NCBI GenBank assembly: GCA_021818955.1
Contig: JAKASR010000003.1
Location: 248,001-312,000 of the forward strand
Source of the DNA: Acidobacteriota bacterium
GTDB taxonomy: Bacteria; Acidobacteriota; Terriglobia; Terriglobales; SCQP01
Reading direction: 5' to 3'
Length of the DNA stretch: 64,000 nucleotides
Part shown: in pieces, positions 30,050 through 31,268 of the stretch
Layout of the letters: each line of letters starts with the position of its first letter
How positions within the stretch are numbered: the stretch's first letter is position 1
Notes under the pieces: generated by a model
The model's input: only the letters and a program-made list of their open reading frames with translations
What the model was told of the DNA's origin: nothing
Databases searched by the model: none
Translations under genes and position numbers: made by a program

Positions 30050-30267
30050 AGCGTTAACGGCCGAGTCGGATAGAAGTATTCGTCCGAGGCAATTTCGAAG
30101 AAATTGCTTCAAGTAATGCCCGCAGGCCGAAGCGCGGGGTTCCGGTTAGGTCCCGCGCTTATTAACGACGATAAACCTTAGGCATCCATGAGTATTCGCA
30201 ATGCGTCCGGCTTCGGCCGGACATTTGCGAAAATGTCAGCGCCTAAAAGTAAAAGCGGCCGAGCCGC
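30050..30267 (+). repeat. Dispersed AAGCGTTAAC element, copy A (218 bp)
   Basis: Complete copy from AGCGTTAACGGCCGAGTCGG to GCGGCCGAGCCGC. One palindromic module (CAATTTC-GAA-GAAATTG, about 30090-30107) lies near the left end; the central GCGCGGG/CCCGCGC hairpin and a perfect GTCCGGC-TTCG-GCCGGAC hairpin follow. The right end abuts the duplicated VWFA gene fragment that begins at 30268. Confidence 0.92.
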
Positions 30268-30482
30268 CAGCAGCGGCTTGTACCAGCGCTGCTGAATCCG
30301 GCGTTGTGGCAGGACTTGCGCGCGCACCGGCAAGCGGCGTAAAGGCAAAGTGTAATAACCTTTGCGGGTTTGAATTTTCAAGCCGTGGCGATAAATGCGC
30401 AGCGTGATTTTACGAAATTTCCCATCGCTGCGCGTATCCGCTGGAGAATAAGCGGCAAGATATAAACCTTTGCGGGTGCCGA
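30268..30482 (-). pseudogene. Fragment 1 of a duplicated VWFA-related gene
   Basis: This 215-bp stretch matches 31558-31772 of the intact VWFA-related gene at about 97 percent by eye (a handful of substitutions, no gaps). It is bounded on the left by element copy A and on the right by copy B. It has no start codon in context and continues, in gene order, in fragment 2. It cannot be expressed as part of a functional protein. Confidence 0.88.
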
Positions 30483-30701
30483 AAGCGTTAACGATCGAGT
30501 CGAACAGAAGTATTCGTCCGAAATCGCAGGCCGAAGCGCGGGGTTCCTATTAGGTCCCGCGCCGATTAACGACAATACAAAGCAATTCCGCAGGAATTGC
30601 GTATGATAATGCCCAGCAGCCATAAGTATTCGCCATGCGTCCGGTTTCGGCCGGACCTTTGTGAAAGCGTCAGCGCCTAAAAGTAAAAGCGGCCGTGCCG
30701 C
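30483..30701 (+). repeat. Dispersed AAGCGTTAAC element, copy B (219 bp)
   Basis: Inserted exactly between the bases equivalent to 31772 and 31773 of the intact VWFA gene, with no visible target-site duplication or deletion. The palindromic module GCAATTCC-GCA-GGAATTGC is at about 30582-30600, toward the right side, not near the left end as in copy A. Differs from copy C at few positions. Confidence 0.93.
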
Positions 30702-31049
30702 TTGCGCGGCGCAGTTCGGAGCCCAGATCGTTGCTTTGCCAAAAAGCCCGCCCGCCGGTTGCGCCCGCGATCGCAAGCATGCCGAGGTCGCGCGTTTGGT
30801 TGAGTTCACTCATCAATACCGGCGAAGCCATGCCAGGCCGCGGCCGGCCGGGCGCGATGCCGCCTGGGTAAGGCGCCTGCAAGCCGCGCGCGTCAATCAT
30901 GTCGAGTGTCACGCGATAGCGGACCGCCGCCGATTCGAGTGGGCGCAGATCGGGTCTTTGATTCAGGCGCAATTCCGTCATCGAACTGCCTGCGCCATAG
31001 GCGTCGGCCAGATCCGCGGCCAGCCGGCCGGGATTGAGCGAAAATCCAT
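30702..31049 (-). pseudogene. Fragment 2 of a duplicated VWFA-related gene
   Basis: 348 bp matching 31773-32120 of the intact gene with only a few substitutions. Together with fragment 1 it represents one contiguous internal stretch (31558-32120) of the gene, now split by copy B. The right edge stops abruptly at copy C. On the minus strand the frame runs into the element and ends there with the same GTAAFTFRR-type tail seen in arsR. Confidence 0.9.
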
Positions 31050-31268
31050 AAGCGTTAACGGCTGAGTCGGATAGAAGTATTCGTCCGAAATCGCAGGCCG
31101 AAGCGCGGGGTTCCTATTAGGTCCCGCGCCGATTAACGACAATACCAAGCAATTCCGCAGGAATTGCGTATGATAATGCCCAGCCGCCATGAGTATTCGC
31201 CATGCGTCCGGTTTCGGCCGGACTTTTGCGAAAGCGTCAGCGCCTAAAAGTAAAAGCGGCTGTGCCGC
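31050..31268 (+). repeat. Dispersed AAGCGTTAAC element, copy C (219 bp, reference copy)
   Basis: Taken as reference. Left end AAGCGTTAACGGCTGAGTCG. Hairpins, left to right: GCGCGGG (31103-31109) with CCCGCGC (31123-31129); GCAATTCC (31149-31156) with GGAATTGC (31160-31167) around GCA; GTCCGG (31206-31211) with CCGGAC (31218-31223). The right end has GCGGC/GCCGC arms; read on the minus strand these are followed by TTTTACTTTTAGG. That stands 23 bp after the VWFA stop codon, so it can terminate that transcript. Confidence 0.93.

Follow-up and report, generated by a model that had tools for sequence, protein, structure and literature searches.

Hairpin-rich repeat copies dividing and bordering pieces of a duplicated VWFA-related gene in an Acidobacteriota genome

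The window analysed here, a stretch of 64,000 nucleotides, corresponds to G000:C29:248001-312000, where G000 is the source genome, a 3.8 Mb draft in 47 contigs. It contains an element copy A followed by a first gene piece, copy B, a second gene piece, copy C and finally the intact gene, which encodes a protein of the acidobacterial VWFA family TIGR03436 (E 5.4e-44) without a match in Pfam. As a conserved gene it indicates an acidobacterial source. This order had been proposed in an initial annotation of the DNA and was borne out base for base (Table 1). Around the gene pieces element copies are densely packed on the same strand. A Type I restriction enzyme R subunit is located at 18438-21539 of the window on the minus strand.

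Table 1. Coordinates of the features discussed. Positions without a contig name are those of the window; a slash marks a joint.
Feature	Position	Strand	Remarks
Left-end element fragment	24920..24980	+	model 1-61
Element copy, two pieces	27060..27338	+	model 1-69 and 37-249; profile of copies A, B, C
Element copy A, full length	30050..30267	+	CTAA/ at the left joint; gene base 31558 follows the right end GCCGC
Duplicated gene piece 1	30268..30482	- (coding sense)	equals 31558-31772; 215 bp, 6 differences, 97.2%
Element copy B	30483..30701	+	inserted at GCCGA/TTGCG of the duplicate
Duplicated gene piece 2	30702..31049	-	equals 31773-32120; 348 bp, 3 differences, 99.1%
Element copy C	31050..31268	+	canonical left joint TCCAT/; flanked on the right by the downstream side of the intact gene
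Intact TIGR03436 VWFA-related gene	31291..32886	-	531 aa as used; frame open as far as 33003
Degenerate element copy, upstream of the intact gene	32954..33077	+	model 82-249
Partial element copy	37838..37943	+	model 145-250
Full-length short-form element copy	57837..58025	-	189 nt
Left-end element fragment	62365..62442	-	model 2-80
Separate repeat of about 125 nt (GTGACAATTG...TTTTTCC)	C35:18225-18356, C19:241-372, C46:105690-105810		each copy abuts an element copy
AT-rich intergenic repeat starting GGTTGAT	C45:90123-90363, C29:248812-248942, C43:54319-54534		C45 copy exactly between two element copies
Reverse transcriptase-Cas1 fusion (Pfam RVT_1 and Cas1)	G000:C28:104003-105622 (L201:4003-5622)	minus	

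In the intact gene GGTGCCGA is directly followed by TTGCGCGG, whereas in the duplicate the complete copy B (AAGCG...GCCGC) stands between the two. Copy B therefore separates the duplicate between adjacent bases, with 0 bases lost and without target duplication, in agreement with the initial annotation. The outer edges of the duplicate, likewise said to coincide with element ends, match these to the base: gene base 31558 comes immediately after ...GAGCCGC of copy A, and base 32120 (CCAT) is immediately followed by AAGCG of copy C. An identity of about 97-98% had been given for both fragments, which is slightly low for piece 2. Copies B and C are 95% identical to each other. With a total of 563 bp of near-identical duplicated sequence and six occurrences of the core motif of the element in the window compared to 0.02 expected, the arrangement is far beyond chance.

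A profile built from copies A, B and C revealed about 415 recognisable pieces of the repeat in 2.2 Mb of the 3.8 Mb draft genome. The core motif occurs, with at most one mismatch, in 150 places of the whole genome, and the reversed pattern in none. Full copies are 189 to about 250 nt long, non-coding and rich in hairpins, with variable internal hairpin modules between constant ends (AAGCGTTAACGGCCGAG ... AAAAGCGGCCGWGCCGC). The alignment shows these ends to be imperfect terminal inverted repeats, AAGCGTTAACGGCCG and AAGCGGCACGGCCG, and in the consensus fold the left end is paired with the right end. The single strand folds better than shuffled sequences (z about -4). Pairing of the left hairpin TCGGAC...GTCCGA is kept between genomes via compensatory double changes, and most of 136 copies carry the foot CCGA one base before its stem. 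A search for known structured RNAs in Rfam gave no match up to E = 1. Within the family of the source genome, diverged relatives of the repeat exist in three genera (G001, G003 and G004/G008), and none was found in 66 genomes of a neighbouring family of the same order. Scanning a genome contig collection for the left-end motif returned six stretches, one of them from an acidobacterial MAG. As candidates for an autonomous element, two long gaps between separated left and right ends were read; they hold ordinary genes, for example a RimO-like frame.

Insertion of the repeat is exact: it takes place three bases downstream of a C and does not duplicate the target. Position -4, read at 161 distinct left joints, holds C in 93% and T in 6% of them; C is avoided at -5, -2 and -1 but stands at -3 in half of the flanks, and TT is preferred at +1/+2. 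On the left a single base of the target is strongly fixed, the right end being CCGC, whose four bases, the last of the repeat, also fit the C-N-N-N rule. In the flanks listed for G001, G004 and G003, all clean copies show C at -4 despite diverged left ends. Precise insertion is independently demonstrated by copies nested in other copies (C43:7623-7811, C22:322-512, C36:27414-27604) and by a pair of filled and empty alleles, in which C43:100-318 carries a full copy and the overlapping end of C22 is uninterrupted (GTCGAA/ACCGCG). Together with the constant 5' target base of the 161 insertions and of the relatives, these cases support, far outside the gene-piece locus, the proposal of the initial annotation that the element inserts without target duplication. 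Element insertions distinguish the overlapping contig ends C22:1-854 and C43:1-594, which points to strain variation in the assembly.

At the gene-piece locus three of the four joints follow this rule (CTAA/A, GCCGA/B and TCCAT/C). Copy B and, by its joint, copy C entered the gene sequence via the normal precise insertion of the family. The fourth joint, between the right end of copy A and the gene (TCAG/CAGC), breaks the rule with T instead of C at -4 and was therefore probably made by deletion or recombination. When copies A and C were tested by halves as hybrids, the halves of A had different nearest copies, with identities too close to each other to prove recombination. No second near-identical copy of the VWFA-related gene was found in the assembly, and the nearest ortholog is about 54% identical at the protein level. 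A scan of the gene's protein against the genome contig collection returned no relative, and no relative with an empty site at the locus was found.

It had also been suggested that element ends capture and shuffle gene pieces. We surveyed segments of 40-2000 nt with a true 3' element end on one side and a true 5' element end on the other in 1.8 Mb. Among 46 such segments, pieces of a gene copied from elsewhere were found in two, both at the locus described here, so that capture as a general process is not supported. The remaining segments with full matches are independent intergenic repeats. This applies to the roughly 125-nt repeat beside elements on C35, C19 and C46 and to the 241-nt segment on C45, which were rejected as captured gene pieces (Table 1). 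A further repeated intergenic stretch lies at the contig ends C45:151127-151754, C10:104007-104551 and C14:845-1229, two of whose copies contain an element piece while the third lacks it. As for the trapped gene piece, it seems to be a single, incidental product of the repeat family.

Neighbouring copies share their orientation over long blocks, with only 39 switches in 398 neighbour pairs (2.2 Mb). Strand counts per contig are 0:43 on C6, 41:0 on C45, 22:0 on C35, 22:0 on C22, 0:16 on C36 and 35:1 on C46, an almost complete bias. Transcription does not explain these blocks, since flanking genes share the strand of the repeat 297 times and lie opposite to it 369 times. For a comparison with octamer skew, nine contigs were oriented by element strand, the elements were masked and all 256 flip patterns were evaluated. 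Orientation by element strand gave the highest octamer strand skew of all patterns and ranked third by the number of skewed octamers. On other stretches most results agree, with one clear exception in C12. In windows with a third-position GC skew above 0.08, 62 of 63 repeat pieces are on the minus strand, whereas below -0.08 they split only 38 to 28. Block orientation tracks the strand asymmetry of the chromosome, as expected if insertion is tied to replication, and the simplest reading is that repeat orientation follows replication. On C36 the gene dnaA is flanked on either side by elements of a single strand, and rpsL is on a 6.7-kb contig without elements. The octamer CCGCCCGC, commoner on the element strand in nine of nine contigs, is strand-skewed in step with element orientation and is a candidate replication-polarity word for this genome.

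The search for a mobilising enzyme gave neither Y1 (PF01797) nor TnpB genes in the repeat's own genome. In the relatives, Y1 genes do not follow the distribution of the repeat, and none of their Y1 loci carries element ends. A motif scan of 2.2 Mb (58% of the genome) gave no class-3-like TnpA motif. The only reverse transcriptase above cut-off in the genome is the RT-Cas1 fusion of a CRISPR system, and none was found in the element-bearing relatives G001 and G004. Y1, TnpB and reverse transcriptase genes of this genome were accordingly dropped as candidates.

Taken together, we favour, with a probability of roughly 55%, the view that part of the neighbouring VWFA-related gene was duplicated and that this duplicate is now decaying, divided and bordered by a mobile repeat that bears hairpins, is non-autonomous and has a high copy number; the arrangement would have originated by duplication, insertion and loss of the outer parts, the family being moved in trans by a Y1-type HUH enzyme. 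The gene would first have been duplicated locally and elements would then have inserted into the copy. The parts beyond A and C may have been lost by deletion or recombination between the dense same-strand copies, leaving element ends as exact joints. The family would move in the course of replication, in single-stranded form, on the model of IS200/IS605, REP or 'class 3' TnpA systems. The locus is best explained in this way, as local duplication, insertion of B and C and deletion or recombination outside account for everything by ordinary steps, in an order that we infer.

The main alternative is a composite single-strand transposition, in which the segment from the left end of A to an end at C left a gene copy that bore the three insertions and moved as a unit to a CTAA/TTTGAATG site downstream of the gene. 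The joined outer flanks resemble a usual target in having C at -4 and TT at +1/+2, both gene pieces end in the cut motif C-N-N-N, and single-strand systems can in principle use outer ends. If this were true, element ends would really mobilise host DNA. We give it a limited chance, as there is no second case among the 46 segments, a donor copy was not found in the assembly and the joint between A and the gene is not a canonical site; moreover, the copy lies beside its source in the same direction, which fits local duplication better. Rather doubtful is the wider form of this idea, a lineage-restricted single-strand repeat family with a one-base target rule and an undescribed enzyme, whose ends would pick up host DNA between two copies and re-insert it as one unit, the framed gene piece being a product of such transposition.

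Joints exactly at repeat ends would also result from misassembly inside repeats. A strain allele with three insertions could have been spliced beside the intact allele at repeat copies, and the element polymorphism at the C22/C43 contig ends is in line with this. Such an artefact appears improbable: no full-length match to copy A in the genome exceeds 89% identity, and the longest stretch that A shares exactly is 43 nt (in 1.5 Mb), which makes misassembly at this copy unlikely; moreover, such copies are found by the hundred within contigs of up to 408 kb. Copies B and C share exact matches of 73-74 nt (1.5 Mb); misassembly there would need a short word size. A simple tandem duplication followed by random deletions would account for the adjacent position and same orientation of the duplicate and would leave element ends at its edges by chance. 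With all four edges being element ends to the base, chance is very unlikely, and we give this explanation hardly any weight. As regards the mode of movement, an RNA route with reverse transcription primed at replication forks, in place of an HUH enzyme, would suit the conserved structured sequence and the orientation linked to strand asymmetry, whose polarity may be compatible with a nascent lagging strand, ending in C-N-N-N, as the primer. We consider it quite improbable, given that the sole reverse transcriptase above cut-off belongs to the CRISPR fusion and that G001 and G004 bear elements without any. The partial gene duplicate with later insertions and outer loss remains our preferred reading.

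The repeat family is the interesting part of these findings, and the gene piece is secondary to it. Several hundred well-delimited insertions with a nearly one-base target rule, no footprint and an orientation that seems linked to replication make it a good test case for the questions whether hairpin repeats of this type travel as single strands at the replication fork, and which enzyme moves them. The class 3 TnpA-associated hairpin repeats of this phylum have already been named and were never tested. The gene-piece locus illustrates how a duplicated gene can be divided and bordered by such repeats.

Several known systems share part of these properties. The ends of IS200/IS605 elements (IS608, ISDra2) are similar in their subterminal hairpins and lack of target duplication; their fixed motif 5' of the left end, the last bases of the right end (here CCGC) and a replication-linked orientation may have counterparts in the repeat. 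They differ in a full tetra- or pentanucleotide target, compared to essentially one fixed base here, in their TnpA/TnpB systems, of which neither protein was found, and in that terminal inverted repeats are unusual among them. Should the G-rich strand be the leading one, the repeat and IS608 would have opposite polarities. REP/REPIN sequences are high-copy intergenic palindromes as well and are tied to Y1 enzymes; with exact ends, 189-250 nt and a CCGA foot, the repeat falls outside the 21-65 nt unit and GTAG-type foot of that group.

The PATEs (palindrome-associated transposable elements) of Haloquadratum are alike in being short and non-coding, with near-terminal palindromes, high copy number, nested insertions, core deletions and strain polymorphism (PMC3119063). 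Precise insertion without target duplication and subterminal hairpins are common to both. The imperfect terminal inverted repeats separate our family from PATEs, which have none, and PATEs share ends with IS605 elements of the same genome (PMC3119063), whereas here neither an IS605 relative nor a Y1 gene with matching ends was found. The small mobile repeat SMR-A of the same organism has terminal inverted repeats, no target duplication and no known mobilising enzyme, but measures about 110 bp and targets palindromes of other elements (PMC3119063), while the present repeat takes any CNNN site. The nearest published kind is the IS200/IS605-REP continuum, particularly the hairpins with CnGA foot associated with 'class 3' TnpA, which forms a rare group among the Y1 HUH enzymes and occurs in Planctomycetes, Acidobacteria and Proteobacteria (PMC6006769). 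Solibacter usitatus has three class 3 genes and about 600 linked hairpins (PMC6006769, Quentin et al. 2018), whereas no tnpA was found with the repeat here. By their description, both are hairpin repeats of Acidobacteria in hundreds of copies per genome with a CnGA 5' foot, here CCGA (PMC6006769).
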